Shown: positions 50,484-62,652 of the stretch, one piece after another | Numbering within the stretch: the first letter of the stretch is position 1 | Layout of the letters: every line of letters begins with the position of its first letter | Assembly: GCA_017531985.1 (NCBI GenBank) | Contig: JAFXJY010000016.1 | Coordinates: 16,351-80,350, forward strand | DNA: 64,000 nucleotides | Source of the DNA: Bacteroidaceae bacterium | GTDB taxonomy: Bacteria; Bacteroidota; Bacteroidia; Bacteroidales; Barnesiellaceae_A | Direction: 5' to 3' | Made by a program: the position numbers and the translations under genes | Notes under the pieces: generated by a model | What the model was told of the DNA's origin: nothing | Seen by the model: only the letters and a program-made list of their open reading frames with translations | Database searches by the model: none

Positions 50484-50578
50484 TGAAAGTACCATAGCTG
50501 CATGCTGTATTCTTAGGTATATAAGGGTAATGAATGAGAAATAAAAAATTTTTTTTCATCGCACTGACAGATTTTGCT

Positions 50579-50586
50579 TACCTTTG
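50579..50586 (+). promoter_or_regulatory. Predicted -7 box for the DGR target gene
   Basis: TACCTTTG matches TAnnTTTG; a clear -33 box is not visible. Its position inside the longer open frame from 50534 supports the ATG at 50627 as the true start. Confidence 0.5.
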
Positions 50587-50626: not shown

Positions 50627-52546
50627 ATGAAAGAATATAACGATACCAATCTCGATGACGATGTAGAAGAATACTACACGCATCTACAACCCGATACCCT
50701 CTTGCAGAAGGGAAAGTACCGAATAATTCGTTTTATCAAGAGTGGAGGCTTTGGTTGCACCTATGAAGCCGTAAATACTACATGGCAAGATCGTCGTGTA
50801 GCCATCAAGGAGTTGTACATCGACGACTTCTGTCACCGTCGTCCGCAAGATGGACGCGTGACCATCACCACGCAGAACAAGAAACCACTCTTTGAGAAGC
50901 TCCGCAAAAAGTTCTGGGACGAAGCCAACCGCATCAACCAACTCACACACCCCGGAGTGGTGCGAGTAACCGACTTTTTCGAGGAGAACGGTACGGTCTA
51001 TTACGTCATGGACTACATCGAGGGAAACTCCCTTCACGACCTAATTGCAAAAAATGGTGCATTGAGCGAAGCCAAAGCATTGTATTACATCCGTCAGGTA
51101 GCCGAGGCATTGCAGTATGTTCATGAAGCAGGTTTGATGCACTTAGACATCAAGCCCGGCAACATTATGGTCAGTGACAAGGATAAGGCCATCCTCATCG
51201 ACTTCGGCGTGTCGAGGCAGTACGACGAAGTAAGCAATGCCCATACATCCACCCTTGTACCTTACACCGAAGGATTTGCCCCCATCGAGCAGATGGGACG
51301 TAATGTCAGAGAGTTTGGAGCAGCCACCGACATCTATGCCTTGGGAGCTACCCTATATGCCCTACTCACAGGCGAATCACCCCTCTCAGCCACCATATTG
51401 GCTTCGGGCGAGAAGTTACCCGCATTACCGTCCAAGATAAGTGCCACCACCCGCCGAGCCGTCCTCTCGGCCATGAGCATCAACAAAGACAATCGTCCGC
51501 AATCGGTAGCCGAGTTCCTCGCCCTGTTGGATGGGAAAAAGACGGGCGGAGGTAGGAGCGGAGGCAGCAAACCTAAGTCCGACAAGCCCTTCCCATGGCC
51601 ATTGGTAGCGTTGGCAGGCGTAGTATTGGGTGTAGCAGCAATTATAGGTAACAAAGGAGATGATACGCAGGTAGATGACCTGCAAGTTGATGCGACCGAA
51701 ACAGAACGTATTGTCGATGAGGTAAAGAGTAATCATGATACGAAAAAAGAAGGTAACGGCTTAGACATCTTCCCCACGTTATCGTATGATGAAATGGTCT
51801 ATGTAGAGGGAGGCGAGTTCATGATGGGTTCACAATCGACCAACAGCAGTAGTGCCTATTATGATTATGAAGCAGGTAGTGATGAAAGTCCTGTACACAA
51901 AGTGACACTCTCATCTTATTATATAGGCAAATATGAAGTCACCCAGCAACTGTGGGAATATGTGATGAATTACAGTGGAGCGACCACAGATGGGACTATA
52001 TTTAGTCCGGTAGCATCCGATCCATGGTTAGGCGATTACAATCCCACATCGAGCTATGGAAAGGGCGATTATTATCCGGCTTATTATGTGAGTTATGACG
52101 ATATAGTAAATCACTTTCTGCCACGACTCAATAAGATAACAGGCAAGACTTATCGTCTGCCCACCGAGGCAGAGTGGGAGTATGCCGCCCGGGGCGGCAA
52201 CAAGTCGCAAGGGTGCAAGTACAGTGGCAGCCATTCCATCGACCGCGTAGCGTGGTACGACGGCAATAGTGGAAACAAGACACATGCCGTAGCCACCAAG
52301 CAAGCCAACGAGTTGGGACTCTACGACATGAGCGGTAATGTGTGGGAATGGTGCAGTGGTTGGTATGGCAGTTACAGTTCGTCAAGCCAGACCAATCCCA
52401 AGGGAGCAAGCAGTGGTCAATACCGCGTCAGCCGCGGTGGTAGCTGGAGCGACTATGCTCGCTACTGTCGCGTCTCTAATCGCGACCACTTTACCCCGTC
52501 GGACCGCTACTACGACCTCGGCTTCCGCGTAGTTCTTGTTCCTTAG
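50627..52546 (+). CDS. DGR target: membrane Ser/Thr kinase fused to a variable FGE-sulfatase/C-type-lectin-fold domain
   Basis: From the ATG at 50627 the protein is 639 aa. Residues about 30-300 form a kinase: FIKSGGFGCTYEAV, Lys61 in VAIKEL, Asp174 in HLDIKPGN and Asp192 in IDFGVS, all apparently intact. A membrane helix (about 324-341, WPLVALAGVVLGVAAII) follows a Gly/Lys-rich linker. Residues about 388-639 are a formylglycine-generating-enzyme (FGE)-like domain: MVYVEGGEFMMGS, YYIGKYEVTQQLWEYV, YRLPTEAEWEYAARGG, DMSGNVWEWCSGW. The last 41 residues contain the variable repeat, from RVSRGGSW to LGFRVV. Thirteen codons there differ from the template (residues 599, 602, 608-610, 613, 620-622, 626, 628-630). 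With the kinase inside the cell, the variable domain would face the periplasm, like a receptor kinase. Confidence 0.93.
   Translation: MKEYNDTNLDDDVEEYYTHLQPDTLLQKGKYRIIRFIKSGGFGCTYEAVNTTWQDRRVAIKELYIDDFCHRRPQDGRVTITTQNKKPLFEKLRKKFWDEANRINQLTHPGVVRVTDFFEENGTVYYVMDYIEGNSLHDLIAKNGALSEAKALYYIRQVAEALQYVHEAGLMHLDIKPGNIMVSDKDKAILIDFGVSRQYDEVSNAHTSTLVPYTEGFAPIEQMGRNVREFGAATDIYALGATLYALLTGESPLSATILASGEKLPALPSKISATTRRAVLSAMSINKDNRPQSVAEFLALLDGKKTGGGRSGGSKPKSDKPFPWPLVALAGVVLGVAAIIGNKGDDTQVDDLQVDATETERIVDEVKSNHDTKKEGNGLDIFPTLSYDEMVYVEGGEFMMGSQSTNSSSAYYDYEAGSDESPVHKVTLSSYYIGKYEVTQQLWEYVMNYSGATTDGTIFSPVASDPWLGDYNPTSSYGKGDYYPAYYVSYDDIVNHFLPRLNKITGKTYRLPTEAEWEYAARGGNKSQGCKYSGSHSIDRVAWYDGNSGNKTHAVATKQANELGLYDMSGNVWEWCSGWYGSYSSSSQTNPKGASSGQYRVSRGGSWSDYARYCRVSNRDHFTPSDRYYDLGFRVVLVP
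52419..52536 (+). repeat. DGR variable repeat (VR)
   Basis: This 118-bp segment at the 3' end of the target gene aligns without gaps to TR at 54104-54221 (offset 1685). Fifteen positions differ, at 52421, 52423, 52431, 52449, 52451, 52454, 52463, 52484, 52487, 52490, 52491, 52502, 52508, 52511 and 52514. In every case the template has A; the VR bases are G (6), T (7) and C (2). The last 22 bases before 52536 are identical to TR and nearly A-free, as expected for the region where retrohoming starts (IMH). Confidence 0.97.
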
Positions 52547-52564
52547 TTTTAGAGGGTCATTCAT

Positions 52565-52578
52565 CGGAGATAAGCTAA
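52565..52578 (+). repeat. 14-bp inverted repeat, left copy (DGR cassette border)
   Basis: CGGAGATAAGCTAA at 52565-52578 is the exact reverse complement of TTAGCTTATCTCCG at 54225-54238. The left copy lies 28 bp after VR and the right copy 3 bp after TR, so they bracket the accessory, RT and TR part of the element. Confidence 0.8.
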
Positions 52579-52586
52579 TAAAAAAA

Positions 52587-52641
52587 GCCTTTGAACCGGC
52601 GGGCAGGGCAAGGGACAAGCCCTGCAAGTGGGTTCAAAGGC
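52587..52641. other. Strong hairpin/cruciform downstream of VR
   Basis: GCCTTTGAACC (52587-52597) pairs perfectly with GGTTCAAAGGC (52631-52641), and inside it GCAGGGC (52603-52609) pairs with GCCCTGC (52619-52625). It is flanked by A-runs on both sides, so it would act as a terminator only for minus-strand transcripts. In the Bordetella phage DGR a hairpin just after VR aids target recognition; this one lies about 50 bp after VR and may have the same role. Confidence 0.7.
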
Positions 52642-52658
52642 CGAAAAAAAATAAGACT

Positions 52659-53123
52659 ATGGAAATTAAAATTTTTGATATTTCATCGCGAGGCAGTGAT
52701 GAAGAATTGGAGAAAATGAATAAATTCATGAGAGGTCATAAAATTCTTGATATTGACCGACAGTTTTATACATCGTCCGACAACATAGGACACTGGTCGA
52801 TACTCGTAACATATCTTCCCACAGTCAATCCCAATGTTGAGCGAAAAGAGAAAGTCGACTATAAATCAGTATTGAGTGAAGAAGATTTTGAAAAGTTTAC
52901 ACGATTGCGAGCCATTCGCAAGCAACTTGCAGCCGACGATGCCGTGCCGGCATATTCGGTATTCTCCGATTCGGAATTGGCTCAGATAGCCCAACTTCCC
53001 CAAGTGCTGATTGGAGAAATAAAACGCATATCGGGAATAGGCGAAAAGCGTGTCGAGAAATATGGCAAATTGCTGTGTGCAGCTTATAACAACGAAGATG
53101 AAGCGAGTAGGGTATCTGATTGA
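52659..53123 (+). CDS. HRDC-domain DGR accessory protein
   Basis: From the ATG at 52659 (MEIKIFDISSRGSDEELEKM) this is 154 aa. The N-terminal 60 residues are unassigned, with DRQFYTSSDNIGHWSILVTYL. Residues about 70-150 form an HRDC-like nucleic-acid-binding domain: FEKFTRLRAIRKQLAADDAVPAYSVFSDSELAQIA and EIKRISGIGEKRVEKYGKLL. HRDC proteins replace Avd as the accessory factor in part of the DGR family. Its end overlaps the RT start by 26 bp, implying translational coupling. It probably helps the RT bind its RNA or DNA. Confidence 0.88.
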   Translation: MEIKIFDISSRGSDEELEKMNKFMRGHKILDIDRQFYTSSDNIGHWSILVTYLPTVNPNVERKEKVDYKSVLSEEDFEKFTRLRAIRKQLAADDAVPAYSVFSDSELAQIAQLPQVLIGEIKRISGIGEKRVEKYGKLLCAAYNNEDEASRVSD

Positions 53124-54099
53124 CCGTATAGCCGATGTTGATAATTTATTGCAGGCTTATTATCAAGCTCGTAGAGGGAAACATGATAAGTATGGAGTAA
53201 AGGAATATGGAAAAAACCTAACAGATAATATCTTGTGCTTGCGAAGACAAATATTATCAACAGAAGTAGATGTGGGAAAATATCACTATTTCAAGATCTA
53301 TGATCCCAAGGAAAGACAGATATGTGCAGCACCATTTAGCGAGCGAGTGTTACACCATGCTATCATAAATGTGTGCAAACCATATTTTGAGCGACATCTT
53401 ATCTATGATACATATGCCACACGCGATGGAAAGGGTGTATATGCAGCAATAGATAGAGCAAGAGTGGCTATGAAAAAGTATCGCTATGTTGCCAAATTGG
53501 ATGTGCGTAAGTATTTCGACTCTATTTCGCACACCGTATTAAAAACAAAGTTGCGTAGACTCTTTAAAGACCCTTATTTGCTGACGATATTAGAAAAGAT
53601 TATTGATACATATCATGTAGAGCCGGGCAGAGGCATACCTATTGGCAATCTTACCAGTCAATATTTTGCCAATTATTATCTCTCATCGGTCGATCATTCA
53701 ATGAAAGAAAATCTATCTGTTCCGGTGTATATTAGGTATATGGACGATATATTATTGTTTGCCGATAGAAGAGAAGATATATATCGTTATGTGGAGGAAA
53801 TAGAGTTAATCATGCACCGAACCGTTTTGTTAAATCTTAAACCAGCGGTGGTACAACAAACTCAATATGGAATTTCATTTTTGGGTTATATGTTATATCC
53901 CCATAAAATTTTGCTTAATCGTCGCAGTAAAATAAGGTTTAGAAAAAAGTTGCAGATGTATGAGCAATATAGACAGAGTGGTCGATGGAGTGAAGTACAA
54001 TATCTGCAACACATAACACCATTATTATCATTTGCACAGAAAGCCTTTACACATGGTATGCGTAATGATATATGCAATAGATACTGTAACAGTCGTTAG
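53098..54099 (+). CDS. Diversity-generating retroelement reverse transcriptase
   Basis: From the ATG at 53098 (MKRVGYLIDRIADVDNLLQAYYQ) this RT has 333 aa. Its palm has KLDVRKYFDSI (Asp135), GIPIGNLTSQYFANYYL (residues 179-195) and YIRYMDDILLF (Asp216/Asp217). The IGNxxSQ form of motif 4 is characteristic of DGR RTs, in place of the QGxxxSP of group II intron and other RTs. No maturase or endonuclease domain follows. It should copy the TR RNA while misincorporating opposite adenines. TR begins 5 bp after its stop codon. Confidence 0.97.
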   Translation: MKRVGYLIDRIADVDNLLQAYYQARRGKHDKYGVKEYGKNLTDNILCLRRQILSTEVDVGKYHYFKIYDPKERQICAAPFSERVLHHAIINVCKPYFERHLIYDTYATRDGKGVYAAIDRARVAMKKYRYVAKLDVRKYFDSISHTVLKTKLRRLFKDPYLLTILEKIIDTYHVEPGRGIPIGNLTSQYFANYYLSSVDHSMKENLSVPVYIRYMDDILLFADRREDIYRYVEEIELIMHRTVLLNLKPAVVQQTQYGISFLGYMLYPHKILLNRRSKIRFRKKLQMYEQYRQSGRWSEVQYLQHITPLLSFAQKAFTHGMRNDICNRYCNSR

Positions 54100-54103
54100 A
54101 TAG

Positions 54104-54221
54104 AAAAACGCGTCAACCGCGGTGGTAGCTGGAACAACAATGCTCGCAACTGTCGCGTCTCTAATCGCAACAACAATACCCCGTCGAACCGCAACAACAA
54201 CCTCGGCTTCCGCGTAGTTCT
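54104..54221 (+). repeat. DGR template repeat (TR)
   Basis: 118 bp starting right after the RT gene, identical to VR except at 15 of its 34 adenines. Read in the target frame it is rich in AAC/AAT: clusters of Asn codons correspond to variable residues 608-610, 620-622 and 628-630. In that frame it runs into a stop (CTA TCT TAG) just past the repeat, as if derived from the 3' end of a target gene. It is non-coding in its present place and is expected to be transcribed with the RT gene. Confidence 0.97.
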
Positions 54222-54224
54222 ATC

Positions 54225-54238
54225 TTAGCTTATCTCCG
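54225..54238 (-). repeat. 14-bp inverted repeat, right copy (DGR cassette border)
   Basis: TTAGCTTATCTCCG, reverse complement of 52565-52578. The match stops exactly at both ends. Confidence 0.8.
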
Positions 54239-54244
54239 GTGGAT

Positions 54245-54358
54245 GCCCGATATAAACAGACTGTTATATTGCCTAATATGGGCAAAATGAGAAGATGAAA
54301 ATCTTCAGTTATCAAGGAGGTGGTAGGTAATGATAGATTATTCGAAGCCTCCTTGATA
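54245..54358 (+). other. Three consecutive inverted repeats after TR (possible DGR RNA scaffold)
   Basis: A near-palindrome around 54250-54269 (ATATAAACAGACTGTTATAT), a hairpin GAAGAT-GAAA-ATCTTC with a GNRA loop (54291-54306), and an 11-bp stem TATCAAGGAGG/CCTCCTTGATA (54310-54320 with 54348-54358). DGR RTs need structured RNA 3' of TR for priming, so this tract is a candidate; the last stem may also end the transcript. Confidence 0.5.
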
Positions 54359-54360
54359 CA

Positions 54361-55080
54361 TTTGTATTGCCCCTGCGGGCGTTTCTGACGAAAACACAGG
54401 GGCGAAAATGATAACCCTATCAGCTTGCATACGCTTCGCTTTCCGCTCCTCCGGACGTGCCATCATCCCAATGCGTCAGCCCATAGCCGTAGGGACGCAC
54501 CACTGGTGCGTTGATGGTATAATTATATAAAAATCAATTAATATAATAACCGTACGCACCGCTGGTGCGTCCCTACCTCAGGAGAAAACACAGGGGCGAG
54601 GTAACCTTTTCTGCCCCTGCAAGCGTAGCGAGATAGGGGAAGTCCCCGTAGGGGGAAGGGGTTGAGACCTAACGGATGCGTTTAGGCTGACATGGTCTAT
54701 TACATCTGATTTTTATTATTATTTTTAACCCCTCTGTCTCGCTGAGGCTCGACGTCTCCCCTATATTTTCTTGCGAAAAACACAGGGGCGAAAATGGAAA
54801 CAAACAATACGTCGCAGACGTATGGCTATCGAAACCCCACGATGAAGCACGCAGTGCGTAATCGTGGGGGATGCATGGCGATAGGATACTACCTACCACT
54901 ACGTCGAAGACGTAGCACGAGAATAGCAGAAGCGTAACGTCTTCGACGTAAGGCGATACCGCACACACTTCTACCCCACGTAACGCTTCGCTTACGTGGG
55001 GTTTCTACTGCACAACGTCTCCGACGTTGCAGCGGTGCGTCCCTACCTTAGGAGAAAACACTGGGGCGAAGATGATAACC
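54361..55080. repeat. Palindrome-rich, repeat-rich non-coding island
   Basis: Several short motifs recur: GGAGAAAACACAGGGGCGA-like units at about 54389, 54581, 54773 and 55051; GCACCACTGGTGC and GCACCGCTGGTGC palindromes at about 54497 and 54556, with a GGTGCGTCCCTACCT unit near 54563 and 55034; ACGTC-NNN-GACGT palindromes at about 54829, 54901, 54938 and 55015; and hairpins CCCCACGAT/ATCGTGGGG (about 54836-54869) and ACCCCACGTAA/TTACGTGGGGT (about 54973-55002). Open frames here are short and unlike known proteins. Confidence 0.75.
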
Positions 55081-55520
55081 CTATCAACCCAGCGTCTGAA
55101 ATACACGACGAGGGTGTCAGCCTGAGTATGAATAACCCCCAACGAGCGAAGGCGAAGTAGGAGGGGAGGGTGCGACAGACCATACAGGTCGGAGTATCAC
55201 TTTTATCGGGTATTTCTTGGCTATTAGGCAATAATTGTATAAATTCGCACTCACATAATAGGAGTAGAAAGGAGTCGCATAGTGTCAGCCCGATATACTC
55301 CATAGGGAACTTCTGTCAATTGCGTTGTTATGATTGATGGTTATTTTCTTAGCGTAGATTTCAGACCATGACCGAATGAGTATATCGAGCTATGTGATTG
55401 AGGTCGAGGCTGAATGATAGCAAGAGAAAACAGCAGGCAAGCCCCAAGAATGTTTCCCTTAACGAATGAATGATAAATCGGTGGAATTTATAGAAGTTCC
55501 CCATAGCAAATTGTAAAGAC
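55081..55520. other. Intergenic region between the repeat island and the porin-like gene
   Basis: About 440 bp with no supported gene. A minus-strand frame at 55043-55303 overlaps the repeats and shows no family resemblance. No clear promoter box was found for the gene at 55521. Confidence 0.5.
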
Positions 55521-57183: not shown

Positions 57184-57254
57184 TGTCCTGTGGTGTAATG
57201 GTAGCACTCCAGATTCTGGCTCTGTCAGTGAGGGTTCGAATCCTTCCAGGACAA
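57184..57254 (+). tRNA. tRNA-Gln (anticodon CTG)
   Basis: Acceptor arm TGTCCTG (57184-57190) pairs with CAGGACA (57247-57253). The D arm is GTGT-AATGGTA-GCAC, the anticodon loop TTCTGGC with CTG at its centre, and the T arm GAGGG-TTCGAAT-CCTTC. The first anticodon-stem pair is a C-T mismatch. CCA is not encoded. A terminator follows. Confidence 0.93.
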
Positions 57255-57569: not shown

Positions 57570-60500
57570 ATGAAAAGAATTTTGGGACTCGATCTGGGTA
57601 CAAATAGTATAGGATGGGCGTTGGTAAATGAGGCTGAAAATGTCGATGAACAATCATCGATTATCCGCTTGGGAGTAAGAGTTAATCCTCTGACTGTTGA
57701 TGAAAAAAGCAACTTTGAAAAGGGTGCAGCCATTACTACTACGGCCGAAAGAACCTTGAAGCGTAGTATGCGACGTAATCTGCAACGATATAAATTGCGT
57801 CGTGAAGCATTAAGAGCAATACTGCTTGATAGTAATTTGATAACATCCGATACATTGCTGAACGAGAGCGGTAAACAATCGACTTACGAGACTTGGATGC
57901 TGCGAGCGAAAGCTGCACGACAAGAAATAACACTCGTACAGCTGGCTCGTGTGCTGATGGCCATAAATAAGAAACGCGGCTATAAGAGCAGTCGCAAAGC
58001 CAATGCCGAGGATGGTATTGCAATAGATGGAATGTCGGTTGCCAAGCAACTTTACGATGACAACATCACCCCCGGCGAATACTGTTGCGAGTTATTATTG
58101 CATGGTAAGAAATATCTTCCCGAGTTTTATCGTTCGGACTTAGAGAATGAGTTGGAAAAAATATGGGACTACCAGTCGCAATTCTATCCCGATATTCTGA
58201 CCGATGAACTGCGTCAGCAACTCAAAGGAAAGTCTCAATCGAAATGCTCGGCCACCTTCGTGGCTAAATATAAAATATATACTGCCGAAAATAAAGGAAT
58301 AGATAAGAAATTGCAGACCTATAAGTGGCGACGCAATGCCTTGCGTGAGCAGTTGACAGTCGAGGAAGTTGCTTATGTTATTAGTAATCTATGTGGTGAG
58401 ATAAATAATACAAGCGGATATCTGGGTAACATAAGTGACCGCAGCAAGCAACTCTATTTCGATAAAATCACAGTGGGTGAGTATCTGTGGCAGCAACTAT
58501 CGCTCAACCACCATACAAGTCTTAAAAATCAGGTGTTTTATCGACAGGATTATTTGGATGAGTTTGAGACGATATGGGAGACACAGGCTCAATATCACAA
58601 GGAACTTACTCCGCAGTTGAAGAAAGATATACGCGATGTGATTATATTCTATCAGCGTCCGCTTAAAAGCAAAAAGGCTTTTCTTGATACATGTGAGTTG
58701 GAGAGTCGCAATGTAATCATGGAAGTTGATGGTCACACCAGAACCATGTGCATCGGTCCCAAAGTGTGTCCCAAGTCATCCCCCATATTTCAAGAGTTCC
58801 GTATATGGCAGCGACTCAATGATGTGAGAGTAACCATTCATGAGAAAAATAAGCTGACTCAACGCAAGGAATACTATACGCGAGAACTCACACTCGAAGA
58901 GAAAGAATTGCTCGCATCGGAATTGATGATAACTCGCAAGCTCAATAAAAAGGATGTCTTGAAGTTACTGTTTAAGACCGATAAGGAGAAAGATATAAAT
59001 TTCAAACAGTTGGATGGTAATGAGACCTATGCCGAACTGTTTGAAAAGTATCTCAATATAGTAGAACTTACCGGTCATCTTTTGCCTCGTGATATCAAGA
59101 ATGCCAAAGAAAAAATTGAGGCAGTGGCACTGATATTTGAAGCGTGCGGATATAATACCGATATACTATCGTTCGATTCATCGCTTAGTTCCGATGAGTG
59201 TTACAATCAGACCTATTACAAGCTATGGCATCTGCTGTACTCGTACGAAGGAGATAACTCTAAGACGGGTGTAGAGGGACTCATTAAGAAAATTATGGAT
59301 ATAACGGGACTGGAAGAAGAGTTTGCCAAGATGTTGTCCGGTATCAGTTATCGTCCCGATTATGGTAGCCTCAGTAGCAAAGCCATGCACAAGATATTAC
59401 CATTCCTACGAGCCGGTAATGATTATGCATTAGCCTGTGCCTATGTCGGTTATCGACACTCAAAGGAGTCGTTGACCAAGGAAGAGATTGAGGCTCGAGT
59501 ATTGAAACCACGATTGGATGTCATTCCCAAAAATTCGCTTCGTAATCCGGTGGTAGAGAAAATCCTCAATCAGATGGTACATGTTGTTAATGGCGTTATA
59601 GAACAATATGGTGCTATCGATGAGATACGCATAGAATTGGCTCGCGAACTGAAACGTTCATCCTCCGAGCGTGCCGATATGTATGACAACATGAACTCGG
59701 CAAACAAAGAGCATGAAAATATAAAGCAAATACTGACATCGGAGTTTCACATAGCCCATCCCACTCGCAATGATATTGTAAGGTACAAGTTATATAAAGA
59801 ATTGGAACCTATGGGATATAAAACACTCTACTCCAATACATATATCCCCAAGGAAAAACTCTTCTCGAAGGATTTCGATATAGAACATATCATCCCACGT
59901 TCACGTCTTTTTGACGATTCGTTCTCCAATAAGACATTGGAAGCTCGTGACATAAATATTGAAAAAGGCAACATGACTGCCTACGATTATGTCATGCAGA
60001 AGTATGGCTCGGGAAGTGAATATGGTATCGATGCCTACGAAAGCAGAATATTGGCACTGCTGAAAAATGGTAGTATATCGAAGGCTAAGTGGAAAAAATT
60101 GAGAATGAAAGAAGTAGAAATTCCCCAAGATTTTATCGATAGAGACCTACGCAATTCGCAATATATTGCTCGCGAAGCCATGCGTATGCTACACCAAGTA
60201 GTACGCACTGTTGTGCCTACAATAGGAGCTATAACCGCACGTCTGCGTGAAGACTGGCAGCTGGTCGATGTCATGCAAGAGTTAAATTGGGATAAGTATG
60301 ACCGTCAAGGTCTCACATCCTATTACGAAGATCATGACGGTCGACGCATCAGGCAGATAACAGACTGGACTAAACGAAACGACCATCGTCATCATGCCAT
60401 GGATGCTCTTACCATCGCTTTTACCAAGCATTCGTATATACAATATCTTAACAACCTGAATGCTCGCAGCGACCGATCGTCGGAGATATATGCCATCGAA

Positions 60501-61715
60501 CATAAAGAACTTGAACGCAATGAACATGGTAAGTTGCGATTTAAGTCGCCCATATATCCTGTTTCGCACTTCCGACAAGAAGCCATGAAACACTTGCAGA
60601 TGATACTTGTCTCCATCAAAGCCAAGAACAAAGTAGTTACAGCCAATATCAACAAGAGTAAAACTCGGGGCGGATATAACCGCAAGCAGCAACTTACACC
60701 CCGAGGACAATTGCACCTCGAGACCGTATATGCTGCTCGTAAGCAATATACTTATGAAGATAAGAATATAGGAGGAACTTTTACGTCCGAGGTTATCGAA
60801 CGTGTAGTATCATCGCTCTATCGAAAGGCTCTAAATGACCGCTTGCAACAGTTCAATGGCGATGTCAAGAATGCCTTTACCGGACGAAACAGCATTGAAC
60901 ACAATCCTATTTACACCGATACCGGCATTGCTGTACCTAAGACCGTAAAAGTGCGAAAGGAGGAAGTTATCTATACTATTCGCAAGGATATTACCCCCGA
61001 CTTGAAGATAGAGAAAGTTATCGACCCACGAGTGAGAACTATCTTACAAGAGCGTCTTCGGGAGCATGGCAATGATGCTAAAAAAGCATTCTCCGACCTC
61101 GATAACAATCCAATATGGCTCAACAAAGAGAAGGGTATAGCGATGAAAAAAGTAACCATTAAGGGGCTAAACAACGCAATATCACTACATGAGAAACGCG
61201 ACAATACCGGTGCTTTCATTACCGATAGTCAAGGTCGACGCATCCCCACCGACTACGTCAACACCGGTAACAACCATCATGTAGCCATATATCGCGATGC
61301 CGATGGGCAATTGCAAGAGGTAGCAGTTTCCTTCTTTGATGCAACTGCACGCTACATGCAAGGATTACCTATCGTAGACAAGGGCTACAAGAGCGAAGAG
61401 GGGTGGACATTCCTCTTCACAATGAAACAAAACGAGTACTTTGTATTCCCCGATGTTGAAGCCGGATTTGACCCATCGGAAATAGACCTTACTGATAGTA
61501 TCAACTACACACGCATCAGTCCCTATCTATATAGAGTTCAAGCTATATCAAACAAAGACTATTTTTTCCGTCATCATTTGGAAACTAATGTAGAAAGGGT
61601 AAAAGAGCTGCGAAACATAACATGGCGGCGAGTAACAAATCTTACCCATCTCGAAGGTATTGTAAAAGTTCGCATCAATCATATAGGTGAAATAGTAAAA
61701 GTAGGAGAGGAGTAA
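57570..61715 (+). CDS. cas9: CRISPR-associated endonuclease Cas9 (type II-C)
   Basis: This Cas9 (1381 aa) cuts DNA guided by crRNA:tracrRNA. RuvC-I is RILGLDLGTNSIGWAL (Asp8), RuvC-II IRIELAREL (Glu689), and RuvC-III HRHHAMDAL (His942, Asp945). The HNH domain has FDIEHIIPRSRLF with His773 and Asn796. An Arg-rich bridge helix (ERTLKRSMRRNLQRYKLRR) starts near residue 60. All nuclease residues appear intact. The length is at the long end, as in Bacteroidota II-C enzymes. cas1 follows after 4 bp and cas2 after that, with no csn2 or cas4. Confidence 0.98.
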   Translation: MKRILGLDLGTNSIGWALVNEAENVDEQSSIIRLGVRVNPLTVDEKSNFEKGAAITTTAERTLKRSMRRNLQRYKLRREALRAILLDSNLITSDTLLNESGKQSTYETWMLRAKAARQEITLVQLARVLMAINKKRGYKSSRKANAEDGIAIDGMSVAKQLYDDNITPGEYCCELLLHGKKYLPEFYRSDLENELEKIWDYQSQFYPDILTDELRQQLKGKSQSKCSATFVAKYKIYTAENKGIDKKLQTYKWRRNALREQLTVEEVAYVISNLCGEINNTSGYLGNISDRSKQLYFDKITVGEYLWQQLSLNHHTSLKNQVFYRQDYLDEFETIWETQAQYHKELTPQLKKDIRDVIIFYQRPLKSKKAFLDTCELESRNVIMEVDGHTRTMCIGPKVCPKSSPIFQEFRIWQRLNDVRVTIHEKNKLTQRKEYYTRELTLEEKELLASELMITRKLNKKDVLKLLFKTDKEKDINFKQLDGNETYAELFEKYLNIVELTGHLLPRDIKNAKEKIEAVALIFEACGYNTDILSFDSSLSSDECYNQTYYKLWHLLYSYEGDNSKTGVEGLIKKIMDITGLEEEFAKMLSGISYRPDYGSLSSKAMHKILPFLRAGNDYALACAYVGYRHSKESLTKEEIEARVLKPRLDVIPKNSLRNPVVEKILNQMVHVVNGVIEQYGAIDEIRIELARELKRSSSERADMYDNMNSANKEHENIKQILTSEFHIAHPTRNDIVRYKLYKELEPMGYKTLYSNTYIPKEKLFSKDFDIEHIIPRSRLFDDSFSNKTLEARDINIEKGNMTAYDYVMQKYGSGSEYGIDAYESRILALLKNGSISKAKWKKLRMKEVEIPQDFIDRDLRNSQYIAREAMRMLHQVVRTVVPTIGAITARLREDWQLVDVMQELNWDKYDRQGLTSYYEDHDGRRIRQITDWTKRNDHRHHAMDALTIAFTKHSYIQYLNNLNARSDRSSEIYAIEHKELERNEHGKLRFKSPIYPVSHFRQEAMKHLQMILVSIKAKNKVVTANINKSKTRGGYNRKQQLTPRGQLHLETVYAARKQYTYEDKNIGGTFTSEVIERVVSSLYRKALNDRLQQFNGDVKNAFTGRNSIEHNPIYTDTGIAVPKTVKVRKEEVIYTIRKDITPDLKIEKVIDPRVRTILQERLREHGNDAKKAFSDLDNNPIWLNKEKGIAMKKVTIKGLNNAISLHEKRDNTGAFITDSQGRRIPTDYVNTGNNHHVAIYRDADGQLQEVAVSFFDATARYMQGLPIVDKGYKSEEGWTFLFTMKQNEYFVFPDVEAGFDPSEIDLTDSINYTRISPYLYRVQAISNKDYFFRHHLETNVERVKELRNITWRRVTNLTHLEGIVKVRINHIGEIVKVGEE

Positions 61716-61719
61716 TATC

Positions 61720-62652
61720 ATGATCAAAAGAACACTCTGTTTCAACAATCCGGCCTATCTGAGCCTGAGGAACAAGCAACTCGTCATCAAGTTGCCCGAG
61801 GTAGAGTGCAACGACACCCTGCCCGAGGCATTCAAGCGAGATGCCACACGCACCATCCCTATTGAGGACATAGGAGTAATACTGCTCGATAACAAGCAGA
61901 TCACCATTACACAAGGCGTACTCGAAGCCTTACTGGCCAACAACTGTGCCGTAATATCGTGCGATAGCAGCCACATGCCCACCGGACTGCTGTTGCCTCT
62001 CGAAAGCCACACATTGCAGAGTGAACGCTTTCGTAACCAACTCGATGCCTCATTGCCACTCAAAAAGCAATTGTGGCAGCAGACCATACAAGCCAAGATA
62101 ACCAATCAGGCCACAGCCTTGCAGCGAGTAGTGGGATGCGAAGTGGGTAATATGCGGTCGTGGGCAAGGGATGTTCGCAGTGGTGACCCCGACAACTATG
62201 AGGCTCGTGCAGCGGCCTATTATTGGCAGACATTCTTTCCCCGACATCCCCATTTTGTGCGAGGACGTGAAGGCGAACCACCGAACAATCTGCTCAATTA
62301 CGGATATGCCATACTACGAGCCACAGTGGCACGCTCATTGGTAGGCTCGGGATTACTACCCACATTGGGCATACATCATCACAACCGTTACAATGCCTAT
62401 TGTCTTGCCGACGATATTATGGAGCCATATCGACCCTATGTCGATATCCTCGTAGCCGAGATAGTAAACGAAGGTAAAGATATCACGCAACTTACCACCG
62501 ACATCAAGTCGCGACTGCTCACTATACCCATCCTCGATGTCGTCATAGACAATCGTCGCAGTCCGCTCATGATAGCCACTACACGCACATCGGCCTCCTT
62601 GGCGGCATGTTTTGCAGGCGAAACGCGTAGAATAGCCTACCCGGTGTTATAG
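61720..62652 (+). CDS. cas1: CRISPR integrase Cas1 (type II)
   Basis: Cas1 (310 aa) inserts new spacers together with Cas2. The metal site is predicted from Glu161 in DNYEARAAAYYWQTFF, the His219-221 cluster in LGIHHHNRYNAY, and Glu235 in ADDIMEPYRPYVD. The beta-domain start TLCFNNPAYLSLRNKQLVI is typical of type II Cas1. The ATG at 61720 is 4 bp after cas9. Confidence 0.97.
   Translation: MIKRTLCFNNPAYLSLRNKQLVIKLPEVECNDTLPEAFKRDATRTIPIEDIGVILLDNKQITITQGVLEALLANNCAVISCDSSHMPTGLLLPLESHTLQSERFRNQLDASLPLKKQLWQQTIQAKITNQATALQRVVGCEVGNMRSWARDVRSGDPDNYEARAAAYYWQTFFPRHPHFVRGREGEPPNNLLNYGYAILRATVARSLVGSGLLPTLGIHHHNRYNAYCLADDIMEPYRPYVDILVAEIVNEGKDITQLTTDIKSRLLTIPILDVVIDNRRSPLMIATTRTSASLAACFAGETRRIAYPVL

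Follow-up and report, generated by a model that had tools for sequence, protein, structure and literature searches.

Can a bacterial retroelement rewrite the outside of a signalling receptor? This question is raised by a stretch of 64,000 nucleotides from Bacteroidaceae bacterium (NCBI GenBank assembly GCA_017531985.1, contig JAFXJY010000016.1, positions 16,351 to 80,350 of the forward strand), hereafter called the window, in which positions 50,627 to 54,360 hold a diversity-generating retroelement (DGR) and a gene for a receptor-like Ser/Thr kinase. The element consists of a reverse transcriptase (RT), an HRDC accessory gene, a template repeat (TR) and a variable repeat (VR), the last being at the 3' end of the kinase gene. 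Just after VR and TR are two complementary tags that we call X and X'. We think it probable that this HRDC-type DGR rewrites the predicted outward lectin-fold tip of a membrane-anchored kinase, coupling new ligands to phosphorylation inside the cell, and that X' guides the copies.

Identity of the retroelement

TR and VR aligned without gaps over 118 nt with 15 mismatches, all 15 at TR adenines. Adenines make up 34 of the 118 TR bases and the hypergeometric probability of this outcome is 5e-10. No mismatch fell at a non-adenine position, synonymous sites included, and the VR ends directly before the stop codon of the 639-aa target open reading frame (ORF). Sixteen TR codons are able to vary, so that about 10^17.8 protein variants are reachable. 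Among the 14 TR codons that start with AA, 13 end in C or T, which makes stops impossible in these 13. The gene order on the + strand of the window is target, HRDC, RT and TR, and the features of the locus are as follows.

50579-50586, +: TAnnTTTG box (TACCTTTG), likely a Bacteroidota-type -7 promoter element (pattern match)
50627-52546, +: DGR target gene, 639 aa, Ser/Thr kinase, membrane helix and FGE/C-type-lectin fold (ORF, Pfam and model)
50723-51391, +: Hanks-type kinase domain, residues 33-255 (Pfam Pkinase, 4e-39; Foldseek)
51593-51649, +: single predicted membrane helix, residues 323-341 (hydropathy and charge; helix 324-341 in the model)
51785-52534, +: FGE-sulfatase/C-type-lectin-fold ectodomain, residues 387-636 (Pfam, 9e-48; PDB match; Foldseek)
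52419-52536, +: VR, with the same 3' end as the TR (ungapped TR/VR alignment)
52555-52585, +: tag X, reverse complement of X' (81% over 31 nt, with a 14-nt exact core; inverted-repeat search)
52587-52642, +: hairpin 3' of the VR, inner stem 52603-52609/52619-52625 (read from the sequence)
52659-53123, +: HRDC accessory gene (Pfam HRDC, 3e-13)
53098-54099, +: DGR reverse transcriptase, 333 aa, motifs IGNLTSQ and YMDD (RVT_1, 1e-18)
54104-54221, +: TR (ungapped TR/VR alignment)
54218-54248, +: X' in the TR spacer, complementary to X (inverted-repeat search)
54241-54245, +: conserved spacer motif GGATG, within X' (motif count across loci)
54254-54259, +: AAACAG directly 3' of X', candidate cDNA-priming adenines (motif count across loci)
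54310-54358, +: terminator-like hairpin, predicted end of the TR transcript (read from the sequence), matching the end of the annotated stretch at 54360

The RT contains the IGxxxSQ motif that marks DGR RTs. Its best PDB match was 8ub7 (1.5e-40; next 1e-14), which we take to be the BPP-1 DGR RT. In a tree of 35 RTs it grouped with 22 DGR rows (100/98), separate from the 8 rows of group II and the 5 of the retron family, and among the DGR rows it fell in a subclade of 14 HRDC-type RTs (100/99). The HRDC and RT ORFs overlap and both frames are intact. A first-pass annotation of this DNA had named the RT motifs, the HRDC gene, and the TR and VR with the latter at the 3' end of the target gene, and each of these was borne out, as was the expectation that the RT would fall inside the DGR clade. 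With adenine-confined mismatches, an RT in the DGR clade, an HRDC accessory gene, a C-type-lectin-fold gene with the VR at its 3' end and a hairpin downstream of the VR, the locus is, judged by its sequence, a complete HRDC-type DGR.

For comparison with other loci, a scan of named genomes gave 349 RT relatives, of which the best 80 were kept; with the window this makes 81 loci. Among those best 80 of 349, the nearest named RTs came from Bacteroidales metagenome-assembled genomes, the nearest of all being that of L030 (Alistipes sp. RGIG8749, 64%). An HRDC-like ORF was present in 80 of the 81 loci, window counted. Our TR/VR finder returned a pair in 63 of the 81 loci, with 78 target ORFs. For 77 of the 78 VR/TR pairs the flanks could be used in further tests, after mirrored minus-strand pairs of L042 and L085 and pairs with short flanks had been dropped. 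Hairpins 3' of the VR, with stems of 7 or more bp within 130 nt, were seen in 29/77 as against 5% of shuffles.

Using one genome per species, we found an RT relative in 6 of the 60 related genomes examined (E <= 1e-30) and in 26 of 393 genomes of the order (E <= 1e-70), own genome counted in both. In five of the eight sibling genomes the sequence 3' of purL (between 4.1 and 7.3 kb per genome) was searched with tblastn; none of the genes that lie downstream in the window was found there, and synteny was not kept. A phage origin was not supported, since a scan of viral contigs with the RT alone, the reach of which is close relatives only, gave no match. INPHARED contained 152 phage records with an RT match, all below 60% identity.

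Architecture of the target

The program-made ORF list had an upstream start for the target gene at 50534. TAnnTTTG is the Bacteroidota promoter consensus, and because the box at 50579 falls between 50534 and 50627, the latter is likely to be the start.

The reading of the target as a receptor-like Ser/Thr kinase stands, with strong Pfam matches to both end domains and a hydrophobic helix between them. The catalytic Lys, HxD and DFG motifs and the Gly-rich loop are all present, with Lys61, Asp174 and Asp192 as first claimed; the motif around D174 is HLD instead of HRD, making this a non-RD kinase. Across 51 homologues D174 and D192 were invariant and K61 and the Gly-rich loop nearly so. The score against PknB_PASTA_kin (NF033483) was 158.6, which is below the NCBI cut-off of 450. 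The 20 residues before the helix contain 6 K/R and 1 D/E and those after it 2 K/R and 7 D/E. From this charge bias an N-in/C-out topology is predicted, with the kinase in the cytoplasm and the lectin fold outside, which would fit a PknB-like receptor plan.

A structure model built from the 51 homologues had a mean pLDDT of 82.7 and a pTM of 0.51, at which the relative placement of the domains is unreadable. Foldseek matched the modelled kinase to PpkA (TMt 0.85) and the ectodomain to TvpA (TMt 0.69), and TvpA (2y3c, 4e-36) was also the best PDB sequence match of the ectodomain. As modelled, the target is a kinase, one predicted membrane helix and an FGE/C-type-lectin fold.

Kinase targets in related loci

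When the 78 target ORFs were searched with phmmer, 73 had an FGE domain and two of these, the window and L030, also had a kinase. FGE occurred without a kinase match in 71, many with an N-terminal signal-like helix, and five that were cut or short matched neither domain. Thirteen of the 78 are cut at the contig start, so that their N-termini are absent from the data and a kinase could be missed. In L030 the target is again kinase-membrane helix-FGE, with 19 of 20 TR/VR mismatches at A; it keeps 124/272 kinase residues and 114/185 FGE residues. In L053 (Bacteroides sp. UBA939) a TR follows the RT and an adjoining kinase-FGE ORF is cut by the contig end before the VR would be reached, which makes this probably a third kinase-target locus of this DGR type.

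These counts bear on another idea, that the DGR is active and its product an adhesin-like surface binder, with the kinase incidental or constitutive and ligand binding uncoupled from phosphorylation. The 71 target ORFs with FGE and no kinase match fit this, and so does the second target of the same DGR, a secreted FGE protein described below. By contrast, the window kinase has kept its catalytic residues, and L030 and probably L053 also pair this DGR type with a kinase. We give the adhesin-like binder a minor but real chance and favour a diversified receptor.

The kinase family has four copies in the window's own genome, three of them further paralogues (G000 C12, C43 and C4:448), and none at E <= 1e-60 in eight sibling species. 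Kinase-FGE proteins as such are common, with both domains in 113 of 120 among the matches listed, and it therefore looks as if the DGR joined a receptor plan that already existed. Two further proteins from other contigs, P0003 and P0004, are 93-94% identical to the window target over its front 54% and have PF07603 in place of FGE, which suggests swapping of sensors at one receptor gene. The leader translation of P0003 is nearly the same as that of the window target.

A second, unlinked target and variant alleles

A whole-genome search with the TR gave one further low-E match outside the locus, on contig C15 (76%, 1e-15). This second target and the paired tags had been overlooked in the first-pass annotation. 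The C15 gene, which has no linkage to the locus, encodes an FGE protein of 271 aa whose N-terminus is signal-like. Of the 31 positions at which its VR differs from the TR, 19 are at A; of the other 12, 9 are third codon positions. The 64 nt after this VR are the same as 52538-52601 after the main VR, a stretch that covers tag X and enters the hairpin, the far arm of which has diverged on C15. The genome has exactly three copies of the 14-nt X core, one after the VR, one after the TR on the other strand and one after the C15 VR. Because the X core and the 64-nt stretch follow its VR, C15 reads as a tagged remote target, though one not recently overwritten here.

Variants on other contigs are consistent with change in the VR. 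P0002, from a different contig, is a kinase-membrane helix-FGE protein in which 8 residues differ from the TR translation, all at A-containing codons. Compared with the window VR it has 13 differences, all within the 16 of 39 codons that have A at position 1 or 2, and 4 differences in the preceding 94 residues. This agrees with the earlier expectation that VR substitutions are tied to TR adenines. P0002 is supportive, not decisive, because the wider family likewise conserves the residues encoded without A; the 15/15 TR/VR match in DNA is the stronger fact. Among relatives of the secreted target, P0240 is unlike C15 in 4 of the 39 VR residues and in 3 of the 232 others, and P0247, like P0002 a variant between contigs, has a strongly changed VR that is partly frame-shifted in appearance. 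P0242 joins the C15 front (N-terminal half) to the C-terminal half of the window target including the VR, and may be a product of recombination between targets or an assembly chimera.

Paired tags after VR and TR

The two arms of the inverted repeat (52555-52585 with 54218-54248) lie just after VR and TR and are about 30 nt each. Across the 77 VR/TR pairs, 57 exceeded all 200 shuffles for X/X' complementarity. At a score cut of 13, 51/77 passed with the TR of their own locus and 3/77 with that of another locus, as compared with 0/74 for upstream flanks and 0/76 for the next 90 nt. Predicted duplex energies had an own-locus median of -44.8 kcal/mol versus -21.8 kcal/mol across loci. The own-locus pairing was the best among all cross partners in 43/77 and in the top 5% in 63/77. 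Loci were also grouped by X' similarity into 40 clusters; own pairing was best in 27 of these and in the top 5% in 29, and the cluster representatives had a mean of -38.0 against -20.6 (sd 0.88) when permuted.

With longer flanks for 14 loci of weak score (15 VR rows), only L042 and L078 passed in addition. Outside the first set, 8 of 11 further HRDC-type loci reached the 5% level. This count leaves out L148, L150, L154 and L155, which proved to be the same contigs as L069, L083, L060 and L098 and made the second set only partly independent as a replication; L163, the same place as L014, is dropped from the HRDC-less VRs given below. L011, L012 and L013, among the eight that passed, had been examined earlier.

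The duplex reaches about 3 nt into the TR, the median span of X' being TR-3 to TR+32. GGATG occurred within 80 nt after 44/64 TRs, inside the X' stretch, compared with 1/64 VR downstreams. AACAG followed 44/64 TRs within 80 nt, in 38 cases at TR+19 to +35, and was found in 7/64 VR downstreams.

The kinds of mismatch within X/X' indicate which strands might pair. In 28 clusters picked by DNA score alone there were 48 G.T, 5 A.C and 44 other mismatches; the cross-locus baseline of 1086 pairs had 649, 454 and 1478. At four DNA-score cut-offs, G.T and A.C numbered 53 v 8, 51 v 6, 48 v 5 and 42 v 4. Loci picked by RNA energy gave 44 G.T v 8 A.C, but selection by energy itself favours G.T. The excess of G.T over A.C favours pairing of sense strands, hence RNA. 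The same asymmetry disfavours X/X' as inverted homology at the level of DNA. We also rejected the idea that X and X' are the ends of a mobile cassette, since further VRs carry X too.

Sense strands of X and X' could also pair within one RNA. Because both tags lie in what appears to be a single transcription unit, they might form a cis element of the mRNA (a long-range stem, an attenuator or a processing site) or part of a terminator and not a targeting guide. Against this, X was kept after 25 of the 26 VRs in multi-VR loci, the sole exception being at a contig edge, and it was kept at C15, which is on another contig and without a shared TR transcript. The tags were also not detected by shuffle test in five phage DGRs that have a TR/VR pair (L120 is annotated with avd; BPP-1 was not included), nor in any of 7 VRs from 6 HRDC-less places, of which L160 came closest at 0.051. 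A sixth phage DGR examined gave no TR/VR pair. These results make a cis element rather unlikely. In L066, L092 and L100 there are three to four VRs per TR, with X after each VR.

Another use for such pairing would be as a primer-template, in which the 3' end of X, as DNA or mRNA, primes cDNA synthesis at the TR 3' end. That pairing stops about 3 nt inside the TR would place the X 3' end so as to copy the TR. The product, however, would be a fold-back of the VR with antisense TR, and BPP-1 primes from an internal spacer adenine (PMC12875486; this and the other papers cited by PMC number are drawn on in part, and statements about them refer to those parts). The conserved AACAG also lies directly 3' of X'. 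We regard the primer-template as improbable and retain the idea of a guide.

The paired tags look new and appear to recur in HRDC-type DGRs. Complementarity between TR and VR flanks was unreported in the literature searched, largely papers outside subscription: the parts available of PMC3240598, PMC4372165, PMC12875486, PMC8867640, PMC4891356 and PMC10907252 describe hairpins or inverted repeats near the VR, or none.

In a same-genus FGE gene for which no RT was detected (L021, G003:C18), the downstream flank pairs with the window X' at -34.7, compared with a shuffle minimum of -26.9. This gene is perhaps a relic DGR target, or an RT was overlooked.

Comparison with known systems

One close system is the HRDC-type DGR of Treponema denticola (PMC4891356), in which the HRDC gene likewise overlaps the RT gene and the target, TvpA, has a lectin fold and is the best PDB sequence match of the window ectodomain. 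There, the targets include predicted lipoproteins and the accessory gene lies between TR and RT, whereas in the window the TR comes after the RT; paired tags are not mentioned in the available part of that paper. A close target is found in cyanobacteria, where variable proteins have an N-terminal Hanks-type kinase and a C-terminal diversified C-type-lectin domain, and where remote targets also occur (PMC7517822). In that group, DGR-internal targets contain the kinase superfamily more often than any other domain, and a ligand-activated kinase has been proposed for these proteins (PMC7517822). The cyanobacterial kinase targets are mostly predicted to be cytosolic; the window target instead is predicted to have a single membrane helix and to place its lectin fold outside, and it belongs to a Bacteroidota HRDC lineage.

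Thiohalocapsa PB-PSB1 also has C-type-lectin targets joined to effector domains, Pkinase being listed among the target domains, and some of its lectin domains are predicted to be periplasmic (PMC10907252). Unlike the window locus, these are part of conflict systems, NACHT and MoxR, in multicellular bacteria, and HRDC is unmentioned in the part available. Bordetella phage BPP-1 has in common with the window A-specific transfer from TR to VR, an IMH at the VR 3' end and a hairpin after the VR (PMC3240598); it differs in having Avd in place of HRDC and the TR before the RT. What BPP-1 requires downstream is a hairpin that pairs with itself, and not a tag complementary to the TR spacer such as the window has. 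Kinases are not mentioned in the available main text of PMC6642488 or PMC8144416.

The first-pass reading of an HRDC-type DGR with a receptor-like kinase target stands, and its estimate of novelty was too high, since kinase-lectin DGR targets were known from cyanobacteria (PMC7517822). DGRs, the HRDC gene, FGE-fold targets and kinase-lectin targets have each been described; a predicted membrane-anchored kinase as DGR target in a Bacteroidota HRDC lineage is a new variation on these.

A possible mechanism and how far the data support it

By analogy with the BPP-1 prototype, the RT would make errors at A when it copies the TR RNA, and its cDNA product would take the place of the VR. HRDC is a nucleic-acid-binding domain of RecQ helicases and may help to open the target site. 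For BPP-1, cDNA synthesis in the TR 3' end is primed from an adenine inside the spacer, and the product keeps its link to the RNA (PMC12875486). The AAACAG beside the junction is a candidate for such a priming site, in which case the hybrid would carry X' next to the cDNA 5' end. In the docking model that we adopt for the tags, X' RNA would then pair with X and antisense cDNA with VR, end to end on the same target strand, so that the RNA-cDNA hybrid would be docked; docking on one strand is possible because X is on the sense strand and adjoins the VR. An altered VR would change a patch of the lectin fold of the receptor. With the kinase domain in the cytoplasm and the lectin fold in the periplasm, binding of a ligand might change kinase activity, and the secreted C15 protein would act as a soluble binding protein with that fold. 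Both signalling by the receptor and guiding by the tags are inferred from sequence.

We lean, with less conviction than for the receptor itself, towards the broader idea that HRDC-type DGRs are RNA-guided mutagenesis machines in which an X' guide of about 30 nt pairs with sense-strand X after the VR and addresses local or unlinked targets, one such machine rewriting the outside of a membrane receptor kinase. If a receptor kinase is diversified in this way, random new inputs would be fed into a phosphorylation pathway, a logic near that of animal receptor repertoires. If the tags guide homing, this would explain how one DGR reaches several targets or targets that are unlinked, remote targets would be predictable from sequence, and targeted hypermutation might become addressable.

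Several observations weigh against our reading of the locus. For the tags, 11 of the 40 clusters failed the 5% test; in the further HRDC set L016 and L171 failed and L149 was at 0.051; and the passing tag row of L060 was lost with longer flanks. For the target, kinase-FGE proteins need no DGR: at E <= 1e-80 the whole target is matched by 1670 of the 7995 candidates that were scored. A-containing codons coincide with naturally variable positions of the FGE fold in the 51-homologue consensus, and no TR was seen for P0002. A-enrichment also occurs in FGE genes from sibling species that gave no RT (L018, 19/38; L019, 23/41), which lowers the weight of evidence from proteins, P0002 included, relative to the TR/VR match in DNA. 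Finally, the RT was found in none of eight other same-genus genomes (E <= 1e-30).

This last result would also suit a decaying relic, in which the VR pattern records past activity or recombination among paralogous FGE genes. The 12 non-adenine mismatches and damaged hairpin of C15 point the same way, and mosaic identity blocks between both target genes, together with the chimeric P0242, point to recombination. Opposed to this are the open frames of RT, HRDC and target, the main VR without a single non-adenine mismatch even at synonymous sites, and the existence of the different allele P0002 and of P0247, the changed relative of C15. We consider a relic quite improbable and keep to an element that likely rewrites its targets.

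Neighbouring features

Between the DGR and the next gene there is a family of intergenic direct and inverted repeats (54390-55086). A tRNA gene (57184-57254) lies between the DGR and cas9. Further 3' of the DGR are Type II CRISPR genes (57570-62652), with a Cas9-like ORF at 57570-61715 and a Cas1-like ORF at 61720-62652, both named from their letters alone.

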